Below, in pieces: positions 23,443 to 31,269 of a DNA stretch of 64,000 bases. The notes under the pieces were generated by a model. The model searched no databases. It worked only from the letters and a program-made list of their open reading frames with translations, and was not told the DNA's origin. How positions within the stretch are numbered: the stretch's first letter is position 1; the number at the start of each line of letters is the position of its first letter. The stretch covers positions 3,576,001 through 3,640,000 of the forward strand of contig NZ_CP109073.1 of NCBI RefSeq assembly GCF_035917415.1, read 5' to 3'. This DNA comes from Streptomyces sp. NBC_01803 (GTDB taxonomy: Bacteria > Actinomycetota > Actinomycetes > Streptomycetales > Streptomycetaceae). Made by a program: the position numbers and the translations under genes.

Positions 23443-23528
23443 TGGAGGGGTAGGCAGTTCATAACGGACGATGGGCCACTCATGACAAGGGGGCGGTAGC
23501 GGTGGGTCCGGATGTGACGCACGGTGGC

Positions 23529-23542
23529 GTTCGCCGACGGCG
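23529..23542 (+). promoter_or_regulatory. ClgR-type operator, downstream copy
   Basis: A second GTTCGC-N5-GCG, 207 bases upstream of the clpC start and on the same strand as the first copy. Confidence 0.55.
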
Positions 23543-23748
23543 TAGTCATTCGGAGTGCTGATGCTTGGCCTGCGGGAACATCGTCTCGCACCATCGGGTT
23601 GGAACTGTTGTCGCCTGTTCGGGGCACGCCGCCGGGGACAGGAGCGGACAGTTGGAATGAGCGGTCCCCCGTTGCGGGACTAAGCTGCGGAAGGACAGGG
23701 AGGGGACCGACCCCTTTACTGCCTGACCGCTCTGAGGAGCGATTAACG

Positions 23749-26274
23749 ATGTTCGAGAGGTTCACCGACCGCGCGCGGCGGGTTGTCGTCCTGGCTCAGG
23801 AAGAAGCCCGGATGCTCAACCACAACTACATCGGCACTGAGCACATCCTCCTGGGCCTGATCCACGAGGGTGAGGGTGTCGCCGCTAAGGCCCTGGAGAG
23901 CCTCGGGATCTCGCTTGAGGCGGTCCGACAGCAGGTCGAGGAGATCATCGGCCAGGGCCAGCAGGCCCCGTCCGGTCACATCCCCTTCACCCCCCGGGCC
24001 AAGAAGGTGCTGGAGCTCTCGCTCCGCGAGGCCCTCCAGCTCGGCCACAACTACATCGGCACCGAGCACATCCTGCTCGGCCTGATCCGCGAGGGCGAGG
24101 GCGTCGCCGCCCAGGTCCTCGTGAAGCTGGGCGCCGACCTCAACCGGGTCCGGCAGCAGGTCATCCAGCTGCTCTCCGGGTACTCCGGAGGCAAGGAAGC
24201 CGCGACCGCGGGCGCCCCCGCCGAGGGCACTCCGTCGACCTCCCTGGTGCTGGACCAGTTCGGCCGCAATCTCACCCAGGCCGCCCGCGAATCCAAGCTC
24301 GACCCGGTCATCGGGCGCGAGAAGGAGATCGAGCGGGTCATGCAGGTGCTCTCGCGCCGCACGAAGAACAACCCGGTTCTCATCGGCGAGCCCGGCGTCG
24401 GCAAGACCGCAGTCGTCGAGGGGCTGGCCCAGGCCATCGTCAAGGGCGAGGTGCCCGAGACCCTCAAGGACAAGCACCTCTACACCCTGGACCTCGGTGC
24501 CCTGGTCGCCGGCTCCCGGTACCGCGGTGACTTCGAGGAGCGCCTGAAGAAGGTGCTCAAGGAGATCCGCACCCGCGGCGACATCATCCTGTTCATCGAT
24601 GAGCTGCACACCCTGGTGGGCGCGGGTGCCGCGGAGGGCGCGATCGACGCCGCCAGCATCCTCAAGCCGATGCTGGCCCGTGGCGAGCTCCAGACCATCG
24701 GTGCCACCACGCTGGACGAGTACCGCAAGTACCTGGAGAAGGACGCGGCCCTTGAGCGCCGCTTCCAGCCGATCCAGGTCGCGGAGCCGTCCCTGCCGCA
24801 CACGATCGAGATCCTGAAGGGTCTGCGCGACCGGTATGAGGCGCACCACCGGGTCTCCATCACCGATGCGGCGCTGGTGGCCGCGGCCCAGCTCGCGGAC
24901 CGGTACATCTCGGACCGGTTCCTGCCGGACAAGGCCATCGACCTCATCGACGAGGCCGGCTCCCGGATGCGCATCCGCCGGATGACCGCGCCGCCGGACC
25001 TGCGGGAGTTCGACGAGAAGATCGCCAACGTGCGCCGCGAGAAGGAGTCCGCGATCGACTCGCAGGACTTCGAGAAGGCCGCGTCGCTGCGCGACAACGA
25101 GAAGCAGCTCCTCGCCGCGAAGGCACAGCGGGAGAAGGAGTGGAAGTCCGGCGACATGGACGTCGTGGCGGAGGTGGACGAGGAGCTCATCGCCGAGGTC
25201 CTGGCCGCATCCACCGGCATCCCGGTCTTCAAGCTCACCGAGGAGGAGTCCTCGCGCCTGCTCCGCATGGAGGACGAGCTGCACAAGCGCGTCATCGGCC
25301 AGGAGGACGCCATCAAGGCCCTCTCCCAGGCCATCCGGCGGACCCGTGCGGGTCTGAAGGACCCGAAGCGGCCCGGCGGCTCGTTCATCTTCGCCGGCCC
25401 GTCCGGTGTCGGTAAGACGGAGCTGTCCAAGACGCTGGCGGAGTTCCTGTTCGGCGACGAGGACGCGCTGATCTCCCTCGACATGTCGGAGTTCGGCGAG
25501 AAGCACACGGTCTCCCGGCTCTTCGGCTCCCCGCCCGGCTACGTCGGGTACGAGGAGGGCGGCCAGCTCACGGAGAAGGTGCGCCGGAAGCCGTTCTCGG
25601 TCGTGCTGTTCGACGAGGTCGAGAAGGCCCACCCGGACATCTTCAACTCGCTGCTCCAGATCCTGGAGGACGGTCGCCTGACCGACTCCCAGGGCCGGGT
25701 CGTGGACTTCAAGAACACCGTCATCATCATGACGACGAACCTCGGCACCCGGGACATCTCCAAGGGCTTCAACATGGGCTTCGCGGTGGCCGGCGACGTG
25801 ACCACCGGGTACGAGCGTATGAAGGCCAAGGTCAACGATGAGCTGAAGCAGCACTTCCGGCCGGAGTTCCTCAACCGGGTGGACGACACGGTGGTCTTCC
25901 ACCAGCTCACGCAGGACGACATCATCAAGATCGTCGACCTGATGGTCGCCCAGGTGGACGACCGACTGCGGGATCGGGACATGGGCATCGAGCTCAGCAC
26001 CGAGGCCAAGCAGCTCCTGGCGAGGCGTGGCTACGACCCGGTGCTGGGCGCCCGGCCGCTGCGCAGGACGATCCAGCGGGAGATCGAGGACATCCTGTCG
26101 GAGAAGATCCTGTTCGGTGAGCTGCGTCCCGGCCACATCGTGGTCGTGGACACCGAGGGTGAGGGCAAGGAGCAGATCTTCACCTTCCGGGGTGAGGAGA
26201 AGTCCTCCCTGCCGGACGCCCCGCTCGTGGAGCAGGCGGCCAAGGGCGGTCCGAACCTGTCCAAGGGTGAGTAG
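23749..26274 (+). CDS. clpC: ATP-dependent Clp protease ATPase subunit ClpC
   Basis: 841-residue HSP100 unfoldase that feeds substrates to ClpP. Two ClpN repeats (residues 1-150), first AAA+ domain with Walker A GEPGVGKT near 213 and Walker [18 protein letters not shown]. The M domain carries a UVR-like motif ([16 protein letters not shown]), and the second AAA+ has Walker A GPSGVGKT near 550 and [18 protein letters not shown]. The ClpP-docking loop is expected near [12 protein letters not shown] 23749 matches the family start ([20 protein letters not shown]). It is monocistronic, ended by an 18-bp hairpin, and has two ClgR-type boxes upstream. Confidence 0.97.
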
Positions 26275-26291
26275 CGCTAGCTGACCCACCG

Positions 26292-26332
26292 CGACGCCCC
26301 CCGTGGCCCGATCAGGGCCACGGGGGGCGTCG
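26292..26332. terminator. Bidirectional hairpin between clpC and the NACHT gene
   Basis: Perfect 18-base-pair stem with a five-base GATCA loop; the left arm includes CCCCCCGTGGCCC and the right arm GGGCCACGGGGGG. It lies 17 bases after the clpC stop and five bases beyond the end of the convergent NACHT gene, so it can serve both. Confidence 0.85.
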
Positions 26333-26337
26333 GCGTT

Positions 26338-29300
26338 TCAGTACCGGGGAGCCGGCGGGGCGGTGAACTGGACGTGGGAGGGGAGGCCGGGTCCGGCCGA
26401 CGGCTGATGGACCTGGACCGACCGCAGCTCCGGAAGTCCGGAAAGCGGGGAGAAGTCCTCCGAGCCGTGGCTCAGCGCCAGTGTGCGGAGGCCGGGAAAC
26501 ACCGTGGGCAGGATGTCCAGGTCGGCGGAGAAGCGCCGCTCTTCCTGGGCGTTCCGGAAGAGCAGCAGCCTTTCCACGGTGGGGAAGTCCGCGTCGGTGG
26601 ACGTGAGATCGCTCAGCACCCGCTCATGGAGCAGGAGGTTCCGGAGGGACGGCAATCCGGCGATCGCGTGCCATTCCTCCCGGGCGAGAGCGCGGTCGGT
26701 GTGGTGCACCGCCAATTCCGTCAGCCCGGGCCACGTCCGGATCCCGGTGAGGTCCGGAACGTGGGACGGCAGGCCGAGTGACTTCAGGGGCGCCCGTTGT
26801 GGCAGATCGAGCAGTGAATCGAGCCGGCCCGGAGAACCGATGATGAGGCCCTCCAACCCGTCGAGCCCCGGCAATCCCTCGGGCTCCCAGCCCTCGGTCC
26901 TGGGGTAGAGATTCAGGACCCGCACCGATGTCCCGGCCAGGGGAGCGAGATCGGGGATGTGCGGGCAGTTGTCCAGCAGGAGCGATCGGAGGCCGGGCAA
27001 TCGGCCGACGAAGTCCAGATCACCGATCGTCGCGCAATCCCGGAGCGACAGGGACACGAGCGGTCGGTCGGCCAGGGCGGAGAGGATGTCCTCCGCCGTG
27101 AAGTCGCCGCGCAGATCCGCCCGTGCCAGACCGGTCAGCGTGCCGAGATATCCGAGCTCTTCCCCGGTGGTGGCCGGAAAGGTCAGGTCGGCGTCGTCGC
27201 GAGGAAGATGAGAGACGATCTCGGTGAAGTAGCGGGTGGTGTCGAACCGATACCAGCTCACCGCCAGCAGATGGCGCACGAGGGTCGAGGAATGGTGGCG
27301 AAAGGCGCGCAGCTTGATGAGCGCGGCGTCCGTGCCGACGCGGGCCGCCGTGAATACCACCTCCAGGGCCTCCGCGTCGGTGAGCTCATCCGGACCCGGC
27401 AGTAAGTCCAGTGCCACCGAGCCGATCTCCGCCAGCTTGACGGCCTCGGCGCGCACCCGGGGAGGAATGTAGCGTTCGGCGCGGCTCACCACCGCGGCGC
27501 GGATTTCCGGGCGGAGCTGGCTGGCGTGTTCGAGGCAGGCCGTCGCGAGAAGGTGGAGCCGGACGCGGTGCCCGGGGTCGCGGTCGCCGCGTTCGATCAG
27601 GTCGGTGAGGAGCTCGCCGCGCTGAATCGGCTGGGCGTGCGCGACGGCCATCCGGACCACGTCCTCCCATTGGTCCTCGTGGGCCTTTTCGACCAGCGCG
27701 GGAAAGTGCTGCCATTCCACGATCTCGCGGGCGCCGAGATAGTCCTGGAATGTCCGGTGCACGAAATCGATCGCGCCGGGAACGGGTTCGCGTACGACGC
27801 CGGAGCGTTCGATCAGGTGTCGCAGCACGGCCTGGGCCGGGCCGAGCCGGTCGCCCCGGTGCAGGGCGGGCAGGGCGTTGTCGATGAGCGTGGTCGCCAG
27901 GGAGGCGGTCATCTCGGAGCGGCCGTTGGTGATCAGCCAGTAGGCCAGCTTCTGGAGAAGCGATATCTGCGTCTCGGCGTCCAGCTCCACACCGCCGCGG
28001 GGCGGGTCGGGGCGCTCGCGGTCGCGGCGTTCGAGCAGCATCGCGAGCGCGGCGTCGTACAGGGCCTTCCGGCCGCGCGGCAGGTAGCCGTTCCGCTCCC
28101 GGTGCAGGGCGCAGATCAGCGCGCACATCAGGGGATTGGTGGCCAGCGTGGCCAGATCCGCGCGGGCGCCGACGAGGTCGAGGAGGGTGCCGGCCTCCTC
28201 GCGCGTGGCACCGACCGCCCCGTGCCAGCGGTGGACGAAGGCGGCGACGTCGGTGGGGCTCATCGGCGCGAGCGACAGCTCGGTGAACTGCTCGGCTCTC
28301 AGCCAGTCCTCGGCGACGGCGGACGGGCGGGCGGTGACGAGCCAGAGATTGCCGGGGTAGGAGGCGGCCAGGCGGCGCAGCCAGCGGCGGACCTCCTCGC
28401 GTTCGGCCTCCGGGATCTCGTCGATGCCGTCCACGAGGAGCAGGCCACGCTTCGCCGTCAGCACCCGGTGGGCCCACCGCTCGGGCTGGCCGGCGGCGAG
28501 CGGGCAGTCCACGGCGGCGAGGAACCCGTCCGGGTCGGGCAGCCGGCGTCGGTCGCGGGTGAGTGTGCGCATGGGCAGAACGAAGGGGACGCGGCCGATG
28601 AGGTGGGTCAGGCCGTCCCCGGGGTCCCGGCGGGCGGTCGCCACGGCCAGCCACTGGACCAGCGTGGTCTTCCCCGATCCGGCGTGGCCGCGCAGCAGGA
28701 CGCGGCTGTGGCCGCTGAGCGCCTGCTCGGCGCGCTGCGGTGGCGCGTCCGCCGCACCGGACGTGTGGTGGGTCTCCAGGCTCAGGTAGGCGTCGTCCAG
28801 CGGCCATTCACGGGCCTGCCGGAGGTCGAGACCGTAGACGGCGAGACGGCCCTGCTCCCGCCGGACGTAGTCGGCGTAGCGGGTCTCGAAGGCGGCGTCC
28901 TCGACGGACTGGTGGGGGACGCGCTCGATGAGCAGGTCGACGGTGCGGATCAGCCGGTCGAGGTCGCGGCTTTGTTCCACGAGGGTGCGGGCGACGAAGG
29001 TGGAGCGCTGGGTGAAGAAGTTCAGGATGTGCAGGCAGGTGGACTCCAGCACCCGGGCGTACAGGGCGTGTGCGGGCATGGAAGAGCTGTCGAGCTCCCA
29101 CGGTCGGCCGTGGCCGAGGGGGATCATGAGCTGGCGGGCCCAGGTCCGGTGGCCCAGCCGCACCGCCTGGATGTCATCCATGTCCAGCTCGCCCAGGCGC
29201 AGCAGTGAGCGTGCCAGGAGCCCCGTCGCCTCGATGAGCTCGTCCTCCGACGGCGCGTCGTGCGGGCCGATCTCCCGGACGGCCCGGCGGACGAGCGCGT

Positions 29301-29484
29301 CGCACAGCGTGCGCAGATCCCGCTCGGTCAGGGACCGCTTCTCGCCCCCGAACGACACCAGCGCCGCTATCCGGACCGGCTTGTCGACCAGGGCGGCTCC
29401 CGGGCCGTCCTGGCGGAAGAGGCGTTTGATCAGCGGCGTGAACGCGCTCGACGCCAACCGCAGCCCCGCCCCCGTGAGTTCCAT
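26338..29484 (-). CDS. NACHT-domain STAND NTPase with LRR-like C-terminus (bacterial NLR)
   Basis: 1048 residues in three parts. Residues 1-240 are helical, starting MELTGAGLRLASSAFTPLIK, in the manner of NACHT N-terminal helical domains. The NACHT ATPase has Walker A GHAGSGKTTLVQWLA (266-280), Walker B GLLLVDGIDEIPE (347-359) and the sensor segment WLVTARPSA (381-389). A winged-helix and helical segment follows to about 770, then leucine-rich units such as LVSLSLRDCATIGDLDFV, LPGLRSLLLDN and FPGLRTLALSHGSEDFSPL. Bacterial NACHT proteins of this layout act as anti-phage immune receptors; that role is inferred. Leu694 is encoded by TTA (27403-27405), so translation should depend on the bldA tRNA. 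A TACCCT lies six bases before the ATG. Confidence 0.88.
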   Translation of the reverse strand: MELTGAGLRLASSAFTPLIKRLFRQDGPGAALVDKPVRIAALVSFGGEKRSLTERDLRTLCDALVRRAVREIGPHDAPSEDELIEATGLLARSLLRLGELDMDDIQAVRLGHRTWARQLMIPLGHGRPWELDSSSMPAHALYARVLESTCLHILNFFTQRSTFVARTLVEQSRDLDRLIRTVDLLIERVPHQSVEDAAFETRYADYVRREQGRLAVYGLDLRQAREWPLDDAYLSLETHHTSGAADAPPQRAEQALSGHSRVLLRGHAGSGKTTLVQWLAVATARRDPGDGLTHLIGRVPFVLPMRTLTRDRRRLPDPDGFLAAVDCPLAAGQPERWAHRVLTAKRGLLLVDGIDEIPEAEREEVRRWLRRLAASYPGNLWLVTARPSAVAEDWLRAEQFTELSLAPMSPTDVAAFVHRWHGAVGATREEAGTLLDLVGARADLATLATNPLMCALICALHRERNGYLPRGRKALYDAALAMLLERRDRERPDPPRGGVELDAETQISLLQKLAYWLITNGRSEMTASLATTLIDNALPALHRGDRLGPAQAVLRHLIERSGVVREPVPGAIDFVHRTFQDYLGAREIVEWQHFPALVEKAHEDQWEDVVRMAVAHAQPIQRGELLTDLIERGDRDPGHRVRLHLLATACLEHASQLRPEIRAAVVSRAERYIPPRVRAEAVKLAEIGSVALDLLPGPDELTDAEALEVVFTAARVGTDAALIKLRAFRHHSSTLVRHLLAVSWYRFDTTRYFTEIVSHLPRDDADLTFPATTGEELGYLGTLTGLARADLRGDFTAEDILSALADRPLVSLSLRDCATIGDLDFVGRLPGLRSLLLDNCPHIPDLAPLAGTSVRVLNLYPRTEGWEPEGLPGLDGLEGLIIGSPGRLDSLLDLPQRAPLKSLGLPSHVPDLTGIRTWPGLTELAVHHTDRALAREEWHAIAGLPSLRNLLLHERVLSDLTSTDADFPTVERLLLFRNAQEERRFSADLDILPTVFPGLRTLALSHGSEDFSPLSGLPELRSVQVHQPSAGPGLPSHVQFTAPPAPRY
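27403..27405 (-). promoter_or_regulatory. TTA codon (bldA-dependent translation point)
   Basis: In-frame TTA, read from the minus strand, encodes Leu694 in LDLLPGPDEL. TTA is the rarest codon in Streptomyces and is decoded only by the developmentally regulated bldA tRNA-Leu. Confidence 0.85.
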
Positions 29485-29496: not shown

Positions 29497-29506
29497 CGGC
29501 GGGGGT

Positions 29507-29574
29507 GGCCGTTCAGCCGGGTCGGCCGTTCAGCCGGGCTGGCCGTTCAGCCGGGCTGGCCGTTCAGCCGGGCT
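29507..29574. repeat. 17-bp tandem repeat, four copies, across vapC stop
   Basis: Unit GGCCGTTCAGCCGGGCT at 29507, 29524, 29541 and 29558 (first copy differs in two bases). The last unit contains the vapC stop codon and final codons; the other three are non-coding. Confidence 0.9.
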
Positions 29575-29974
29575 GGAAGGGGTCGCGGAGGCGGACTCCG
29601 GTGCGTCGGACGTCCTTCACGTTCCGGGTGACCAGCGTCAGGTCGTGGACCAGGGCCGTGGCCGCGAGCAGGCCGTCGATGACGGGCACCCGGTGCGGGG
29701 CGCTGAGCCGTCCCCACGCCTCGGCGATGTCGGCGGTCACCGGCAGGACGCGGTCCGCGTAACGGTGCCGGAGGTCCTCCAGCCAGAGATCCAGCGTCCT
29801 CGCCCGCGCGCCGTCCCGGTGCCGGACGTTCTCGATGCCTTTGCGGATCTCGCCGATGATCAGCGTGCTGAGGAAGACCGAACGGTCCGGGACCTCGCGG
29901 ATCCACGCGGCGACGTGCGGATCGGGGCGGTGCCTGCGCAGCTCGGACACCACGTTCGTGTCGAGCAGATACAT
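29564..29974 (-). CDS. VapC-like PIN-domain toxin
   Basis: 136-residue PIN ribonuclease. Acidic active-site residues: Asp5 in MYLLDTNVVSEL, Glu42 in LIIGEIRKG, Asp100 in PVIDGLLAATAL, and the TRNVKDV end where Asn118 and Asp121 stand. FitB/VapC relatives cleave tRNA or other RNA and are inhibited by the antitoxin. It begins seven bases after the antitoxin stop, on the same transcript. The last codons fall in a 17-bp tandem repeat. Confidence 0.9.
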   Translation of the reverse strand: MYLLDTNVVSELRRHRPDPHVAAWIREVPDRSVFLSTLIIGEIRKGIENVRHRDGARARTLDLWLEDLRHRYADRVLPVTADIAEAWGRLSAPHRVPVIDGLLAATALVHDLTLVTRNVKDVRRTGVRLRDPFQPG

Positions 29975-29981
29975 CGCGCGC

Positions 29982-30260
29982 TCAGTCCTCTCCGAAGTCC
30001 ACGTGTCCGAAGTCCACGTGGCGCGGCAGATCCCGGGCGGCCACCGTGGCCTCCAACTCGGCCGCCAGCTCGTCGTCCGGGCCTTCCAGCAGGAAGTCCC
30101 GCAGGTCGAGGCGCTCGCCGCGGAGCCGGTGATACTCCCTGATGTCGAGGATCACGGCGACCTCCTCGCCGTGCCGGGTGACGAGCTGGGGCTCTCCGCC
30201 GCTCGCCTGCCGGAGCACCTCGCTGAACCGCTGCTTGGCTTCCTGTACCTGCCAGTGCAC
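29982..30260 (-). CDS. Phd/YefM-family antitoxin
   Basis: 92 residues from GTG (complement 30258-30260), with a near-perfect ribosome-binding site AAGGAGGTG at normal spacing. The N-terminus WQVQEAKQRFSEVLRQA followed by PQLVTRHGEEVAVILDIREY is the Phd/YefM DNA-binding fold, which should also repress the operon. The C-terminal, toxin-binding part ends HVDFGHVDFGED, where a 15-base unit (29991-30005 and 30006-30020) is perfectly duplicated. Confidence 0.9.
   Translation of the reverse strand: MHWQVQEAKQRFSEVLRQASGGEPQLVTRHGEEVAVILDIREYHRLRGERLDLRDFLLEGPDDELAAELEATVAARDLPRHVDFGHVDFGED
29991..30020. repeat. 15-bp duplication in antitoxin C-terminus
   Basis: TCCGAAGTCCACGTG occurs twice in tandem and in frame, doubling His-Val-Asp-Phe-Gly two residues before the antitoxin end. 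Confidence 0.9.
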
Positions 30261-30392
30261 CGCGCCCACCTCCTTCACCCCCTCTTCTGTCCAGTCTAGA
30301 CAGACCTGAACCCACTCTAGCAGGGTGCGGTGGCGCTGGAGTGGGCCGAGGATGGGAGAGGGCCGGACGCTGAGGGACGGAGGTCGGTCGCC

Positions 30393-30614
30393 ATGCGGCA
30401 TCTGATGCGTGCCGAGTACGAGGACGCCGAACCGGGGACCGGCCGGCCGGGGCCGGTGAAGACCTGGCACATGGTCCGGGGCGAGGATGCCGTCGCGATG
30501 TGCGGGCGGGTGCTCCAGCCGGGGGCCGAGGCGCTGTCGGACGAGGAGTGGGGCCGGACGGCGGAGCCGTTCTGCCACACCTGCGGCGCGCTGTATCTGC
30601 GCGAGGTGCCCTGA
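30393..30614 (+). CDS. Small protein with a zinc-ribbon-like cysteine pair
   Basis: 73 residues from ATG 30393, with GGAGG nine bases upstream. A CG and a C-terminal CHTCGALYL separated by about 28 residues resemble a zinc ribbon. The start MRHLMRAEYEDAEPGTG is distinct from generic low-complexity shadows, and codon bias is normal. The frame is open upstream to GTG 30330. Function unknown. Confidence 0.65.
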   Translation: MRHLMRAEYEDAEPGTGRPGPVKTWHMVRGEDAVAMCGRVLQPGAEALSDEEWGRTAEPFCHTCGALYLREVP

Positions 30615-30681
30615 GCCGCCCACACCCCCGCCACCTCCGGGTGGGGGACGACTGTCAGACCCCGCTGGCAGACTGCGGGGC

Positions 30682-31269
30682 ATGGAAACGACGCTGGCCG
30701 TTGCCGGGGCCGACGGGTTGCCGCGCTGTCCGTGGGGCGTGGCCCCCGAGGACTACCGCGAGTATCACGACACGGAGTGGGGGCGCCCGGTGCGGGGGGA
30801 CGACGCGCTCTTCGAGCGGCTGTGCTTGGAGGCGTTCCAGTCCGGGCTCTCGTGGCTGACGATCCTGCGTCGCAGAGACGGCTTCCGGGCCGCGTTCGAC
30901 GGCTTCGTCATCGCGAAGGTGGCGGCGTTCACCGACGCCGACGTGACGCGCCTGCTGGGCGACCCGGGCATCATCCGGAACCGCGCGAAGATCGAGGCCA
31001 CCCTCGGGAACGCCCGGGTGGCCGCCGGGTGGGCCGAGGGCGAGCTGACCGAGCTGGTCTGGTCCTTCGCGCCGGACGCGGCGGCCCGCCCGATGCCGCG
31101 CGGGCCGGGGGAGATACCGGCGACGACGCCGGAGTCCGAGGCGCTGTCCAAGACGCTCAAGAAGCGCGGCTTCCGTTTCGTCGGGCCGACCACGGCGTAT
31201 GCCCTGATGCAGGCATGCGGGCTGGTCAACGACCACCTTGCCGACTGCCACATCAGGGTGCGGGTGTGA
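30682..31269 (+). CDS. tag: DNA-3-methyladenine glycosylase I
   Basis: Excises 3-methyladenine from alkylated DNA. 195 residues with the Tag landmarks RCPWGVAPEDYREYHDTEWG, FERLCLEAFQSGLSWLTIL, FRAAFDGF, GIIRNRAKI and GPTTAYALMQACGLVNDH. The N-terminal cysteine and the late histidines of the zinc snap are present (CPW; HLADCH). A CAGACT seven bases before the ATG may be its -10. It overlaps the next gene by four bases. Confidence 0.93.
   Translation: METTLAVAGADGLPRCPWGVAPEDYREYHDTEWGRPVRGDDALFERLCLEAFQSGLSWLTILRRRDGFRAAFDGFVIAKVAAFTDADVTRLLGDPGIIRNRAKIEATLGNARVAAGWAEGELTELVWSFAPDAAARPMPRGPGEIPATTPESEALSKTLKKRGFRFVGPTTAYALMQACGLVNDHLADCHIRVRV

Follow-up and report, generated by a model that had tools for sequence, protein, structure and literature searches.

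A bacterial NLR gene beside clpC in Streptomyces sp. NBC_01803, probably directed against phage, and its non-conserved TTA codon

The receptor gene and its domains

The 64,000-nucleotide stretch of Streptomyces sp. NBC_01803 analysed here (contig NZ_CP109073.1, positions 3,576,001 to 3,640,000; called the window below) carries on its minus strand, at 26338..29484, a gene for a protein that combines an NNH1, a NACHT and a leucine-rich repeat (LRR) domain. Its downstream neighbour is the convergent gene clpC. An earlier note on this stretch had described the gene as a NACHT-LRR receptor under translational control by the bldA tRNA. The 1048-residue open reading frame which that note had given is borne out, with an ATG start, and relatives match the protein over its full length. 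The five closest relatives among the best 80 of 127 are 61-66% identical to it and align over 1024-1040 residues, hence the frame is not due to chance.

The N-terminal helical domain is NNH1 (Pfam: PF22733; residues 7-187, 28924..29466), the presumed effector, with an E-value of 5.7e-46 and 157.3 bits against a gathering cut-off of 27. It is followed by the NACHT NTPase domain (residues 261-422, 28219..28704), which Pfam detects far above the cut-off (PF05729, E-value 2.9e-29). In the 67 family rows that were aligned, G266, A268, G271, K272 and T274 of the Walker A motif GHAGSGKTT (residues 266-274, 28663..28689) are invariant, as are L350, D352, G353, D355 and E356 of the Walker B motif LLLVDGIDE (residues 348-356, 28417..28443). 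The region between NACHT and LRR (residues 426-790, 27115..28209) is helical in the predicted model, with boundaries drawn by eye, and from the NLR fold (nucleotide-binding, leucine-rich repeat receptors) it would be expected to include a winged-helix part. The LRR domain (residues 791-1048, 26341..27114), the presumed sensor and the fastest diverging segment, was delimited with the family profile and the model. A single-sequence Pfam search gave LRR_4 with an E-value of 0.0015, which is below its cut-off, and the profile of 67 family rows matched solved LRR proteins such as internalin, with a best E-value of 2.5e-21 over profile positions 809-1033.

The predicted full-length model has a mean confidence score (pLDDT) of 88.6 and its best structural matches are animal NLRs. 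LRR-type repeating strands are present in the model from about residue 788 onward, and residues 1-210 with NNH1, modelled alone, are all-helical (pLDDT 88.4). The earlier note had claimed a helical N-terminus, an intact NACHT ATPase with both motifs, a leucine-rich C-terminus and, overall, the layout of an NLR receptor. All of these hold, and the layout is supported by the profile search as well as by the predicted structure, the two checks that the note had proposed for it.

A NACHT-protein site next to clpC

The landmark of the site is clpC (23749..26274, plus strand), identified by Clp domains on a longer frame (23524-26274) inside which the start was chosen, and by synteny. A contig scan found 127 relatives of the receptor, of which the best 80 were kept, all titled Streptomyces. 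clpC lies downstream and convergent in 51 of these 80 loci, in 50 of them within 5 kb; in 6 of the other 29 loci the family gene ends less than 300 bases from the end of the examined stretch.

To lessen the query bias, we searched 121 Streptomyces genomes drawn by the tool, with an E-value threshold of 1e-60 for relatives. At least 86 of the 121 genomes have a relative at this threshold and 120 have a ClpC match. Of these 120 genomes, 60 have a listed relative in convergent orientation to clpC at a distance of up to 12 kb, 46 of them within 500 bp and 54 within 1 kb, the distances being measured between match ends and not gene ends. Among the 150 relatives listed, 68 are at clpC and 82 are found at other places or in genomes that lack a ClpC match. 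In the FastTree phylogeny of 95 family rows, 10 changes are enough to explain the clpC-site label, compared with 24 in shuffles. We take the site to be old, its history including duplications and losses as well as copies placed elsewhere.

The match closest to clpC starts only after query residue 180 in 23 of the 60 genomes (for example G019, G075 and G090). For two of the 23, G031 and G034, the list includes another piece that spans the N-terminus. Up to 21 site genes may therefore have another N-terminal domain or a more diverged one, possibly by swaps at one site, and NACHT-protein site is a better name than NNH1 site.

A second context recurs in ten loci (L015, L018, L020, L023, L026, L028, L034, L035, L042 and L049). 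There the receptor gene adjoins a secreted peptidase-like gene, mostly with the same two-component and TetR-type genes upstream; these functions were assigned by eye.

Divergence of the receptor

Between the window protein and its five closest relatives the NACHT part is on average 77% identical and the LRR 44%. In four of the five (L008, L009, L010 and L012) the adjoining ClpC is 97-98% identical; the stretch of the fifth, L011, ends just after the receptor gene. Over 50 rows with usable ClpC, the window included, receptor distances (residues 1-760) average 0.402 and ClpC distances 0.046.

Several loci hold two or three family members (L009, L016, L017, L030, L037, L044, L049, L051, L053, L077, L078 and L084). 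In L009, L030, L037, L044, L049 and L051 a form of about 1030-1050 residues is accompanied by one or two shorter ones (about 840-870 residues).

A role in phage defence and its alternatives

The domain architecture, the intact Walker motifs, the NLR-like predicted fold, the synteny with clpC and the LRR as the fastest diverging segment are the observations on which we base our interpretation. We consider the gene to encode a bacterial NLR, a STAND (signal transduction ATPases with numerous domains) NTPase at a conserved chromosomal site, that probably acts against phage, and give this a probability of roughly two in three. The role in phage defence is probable by analogy with characterised bacterial NACHT proteins. 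The same analogy, to the NACHT proteins treated in the consulted parts of PMC12169576, gives the order of events: sensing at the C-terminus, oligomerisation of NACHT and an N-terminal effector. The fast-evolving LRR would probably recognise a phage product or a host change induced by infection, the NACHT core would then exchange nucleotide and presumably oligomerise, and NNH1 as the effector would stop or kill the infected hyphal compartment.

A number of results weigh against this interpretation. The fold comparison of NNH1 gave no convincing match to known folds; with no fold relative recognised for this domain, its action as effector is guesswork. None of the PADLOC defence profiles fits the window protein (best E-value 0.018), and among seven relatives PADLOC gave only weak P-loop matches, in five of them. 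In 60 of the 120 genomes with a ClpC match there is no listed relative at the clpC site. Finally, receptor and ClpC distances correlate over the 50 rows (Mantel r 0.58, with 0 of 999 permutations as high), a mostly vertical pattern which would also suit a STAND protein with a developmental or stress role.

Such a role, tied to ClpC proteostasis instead of phages and with the clpC site reflecting function, is an unlikely alternative in our view. It would account for the convergent arrangement in half of the genomes with its short distances, and for the few changes of the site label on the tree. There is also a related observation in the consulted parts of PMC12169576, where bNACHT25 senses through the chaperone DnaJ. 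The same parts report, however, that protection by bNACHT25 was equal in strains deleted for clpA/X and for other chaperone or protease genes, so a receptor that guards ClpC has no direct precedent in that text. Moreover, receptor gene and clpC are not co-transcribed because they are convergent, the site lacks a listed relative in as many genomes as have one, and more than half of the listed relatives are not at clpC at all. The fast divergence of the LRR suits the recognition of changing ligands.

The patchy presence at the site might also point to a decaying or inert accessory gene. Site matches in three genomes (G110, G120 and G122) contain stop codons, and of the 60 genomes that lack a listed relative next to clpC, four (L199, L205, L228 and L249) showed remnants of the receptor gene when the site was examined; several of these 60 stretches are very short contig ends (for example L232, L252, L256 and L257). 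For the window gene, with its full-length frame, invariant Walker residues and strongly conserved NACHT part, we regard decay as very improbable. We retain an NLR that probably acts against phage as the best explanation.

The TTA codon at position 694

The earlier note had pointed to a single in-frame TTA codon at Leu694 (27403..27405, minus strand) and had proposed that it restricts the full-length protein to times when the bldA tRNA is active. The codon is present as described. Of the gene's 162 leucine codons no other is TTA. The genome carries a bldA-type tRNA-Leu(TAA) (G000:C1:2376159-2376244, minus strand). Because of this tRNA and the established role of bldA, as given in the consulted parts of PMC4255298, translation of the codon should need the bldA tRNA.

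The codon itself is not kept. In the aligned column 694 of 96 rows there are 75 CTG, 13 CTC and 2 CTT codons and one each of TTA, TTG, CTA, GTC, CAG and ATG. The five closest relatives have CTG (four) or TTG (one) at this column and no TTA anywhere in the gene. Over all 155 family rows two have TTA here, the window gene and L259, which is 52% identical. The earlier note had named orthologues with CTC or CTG, and a TTA unique to this strain, together with the absence of a phage phenotype, as an argument against its proposal, and as far as the sequences go this is nearly the pattern observed. The presence of the tRNA speaks for bldA control of this gene; the lack of conservation makes the case weak.

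The occurrence of the codon can be compared with its background frequency. In 171 sampled genes from eight Streptomyces genomes with a similar G+C content at third codon positions (GC3 0.874-0.914), 11 TTA were counted in 44,754 codons. This gives an expectation of 0.258 TTA in 1049 codons and a probability of 0.23 for at least one. In 40 sampled 20-kb stretches of the strain's own genome, the TTA frequency is 0.120 per 1000 codons, with the codon present in 21 of 618 genes, as called by a simple codon-usage caller and not taken from curated annotation. At this gene length and GC3, one TTA is ordinary and not above chance. TTA694 is probably an incidental, lineage-specific rare codon and no conserved regulatory device.

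TTA codons across the receptor family

Besides the single gene, TTA codons were counted in two sets of family members (loci L008-L087, L089-L117 and L258-L317). Set 1 consists of 95 family frames from the loci of the best 80 of the 127 relatives plus the window gene, 96 rows in total. For set 2, 89 further loci gave 74 frames with a placed N-terminus, of which 59 were left after removing copies of at least 95% nucleotide identity. There are 31 TTA in 23 of the 96 members of set 1 and 21 TTA in 15 of the 59 members of set 2. Together, 38 of 155 members carry TTA versus 7 of 137 control genes of at least 700 codons (odds ratio (OR) 6, p 3e-6), and after matching for GC3 0.86-0.95 the numbers are 30 of 128 versus 6 of 75 (OR 3.5, p 0.007). 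These p-values are optimistic because the controls include core-rich genes flanking the family loci and the family rows are interrelated.

These numbers bear on the idea that bldA deliberately gates the gene, confining full-length receptor to late growth or aerial development. The tRNA and the frequency of TTA in the family favour it, and the placement of the codons adds to this: 11 of 31 TTA in set 1 and 8 of 21 in set 2 lie within the first 100 codons, whereas only 3 of 95 and 3 of 47 CTA do. Between relatives of 60-80% identity, TTA within the first 100 codons is kept in 12 of 51 comparisons, against 38 of 1215 for CTA and 232 of 3493 for CTT, with the limit that the comparisons are not independent. 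A partial precedent is the TTA gene SCO6638. According to the consulted parts of two papers, a bldA mutant lacks its protein (PMC2000904), and SCO6638 stands in a list of Pgl phage-resistance proteins (PMC1934918).

However, the TTA of the window gene sits 66% of the way along the frame and not at the 5' end. It belongs to the other, poorly retained class of TTA beyond codon 100, of which only 6 of 179 comparisons kept the codon. In set 1, where a GC3-binned expectation of 14.2 TTA compares with the 31 observed (ratio 2.2, bootstrap 1.14-4.39), CTA is raised as well. The 5' bias is shared by the controls, with 7 of 10 TTA in the first tenth of genes of at least 600 codons, and is described for streptomycetes in general in the consulted parts of PMC4255298. 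NB-ARC STAND genes have TTA in 4 of 30 frames, which is not significantly fewer than in the receptor family (p 0.24), and PglZ frames have it in 0 of 20. Taken with the missing TTA in the five closest relatives, these points make deliberate gating of the window gene unlikely.

Mapped on the set 1 tree, the TTA label requires 15 changes (14 forced by starred branches) versus 20 in shuffles; TTA has therefore come or gone more than once and is also concentrated in subclades. We read the excess in the family as real but modest, in a weakly codon-optimised class of genes. Some of the 5' TTAs in the family are possibly functional, and the counts point weakly to developmental gating of some members via bldA. 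One could combine the readings, with an NLR kept by clpC, a fast LRR and repeated, mostly 5' TTA gains in about a quarter of the members that tie the output to bldA, the receptor perhaps guarding ClpC-linked proteostasis; we think this improbable as a whole. The receptor half of the earlier finding stands and the bldA half does not stand for the window gene.

Neighbouring features

Between the convergent clpC and receptor genes there is a strong 41-nt hairpin (26292..26332, minus strand; fold of 26275-26360, z -6.0). It may act as a terminator for both genes, one that lacks a T run; a consensus scan found no T-tailed terminator. Directly upstream of the receptor gene, 29564-30683 contains a gene for a VapC-like PIN protein and an open frame for a Phd-type antitoxin. 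Queries with the PIN and Phd-type proteins gave no match in the 80 relative loci that passed the filter (E-value 1e-15, 35% coverage, 40% identity), and the pair is thus perhaps a local insertion. A 17-bp tandem repeat with 4.4 copies (29502-29576) lies between the PIN and receptor genes and overlaps the end of the PIN frame.

Significance and comparison with known systems

A mostly vertical NLR locus in a multicellular genus is a natural allele series in which the motor is conserved and the LRR diverges, and with it ligand mapping becomes feasible. The bacterial NACHT work of PMC12169576, as far as its consulted parts describe it, used E. coli. Should the TTA excess across the family be regulatory, phage defence would be linked to development.

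Among the literature matches listed for Streptomyces NACHT, TTA/bldA and phage defence, no title concerns this locus or a bldA-controlled NLR. PMC6856326 was rejected as a NACHT paper, as the match was to the author name Nachtigall.

With bldA-dependent Streptomyces TTA genes, the window gene shares a single in-frame TTA and a bldA-type tRNA in the genome. It differs from them in that its TTA is late in the gene and not conserved.

A likeness to the antiphage NACHT protein EruA (NCBIfam: NF058535) covers residues 342-589 of the window protein with an E-value of 7.1e-9. Membership was rejected, with 34.4 bits against a cut-off of 1000, and a literature search on EruA gave no match. With the Avs (AVAST) systems the protein shares the STAND NTPase; the best Avs profile in PADLOC, Avs1b, is not significant (E-value 0.022).

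The arrangement of NACHT, helical region and LRR in the predicted structure is common to the animal NLRs NLRC4, NOD2 and NLRP3, at about 12-20% identity. Where these have a CARD or PYD, the window protein has NNH1. With the bNACHT proteins it shares the NACHT core and, presumably, the N-terminal effector and the C-terminal sensor. The tested bNACHT25 and bNACHT32 carry a nuclease effector and an NCH1 domain, in contrast to NNH1 and LRR in the window protein. The NACHT-LRR architecture is not new, because the consulted parts of PMC12169576 state, citing Kibby 2023, that bacteria encode NACHT modules with LRRs and that these include bona fide bacterial NLRs. Bacterial NACHT-LRR proteins are thus already known, and the window gene is a further member.
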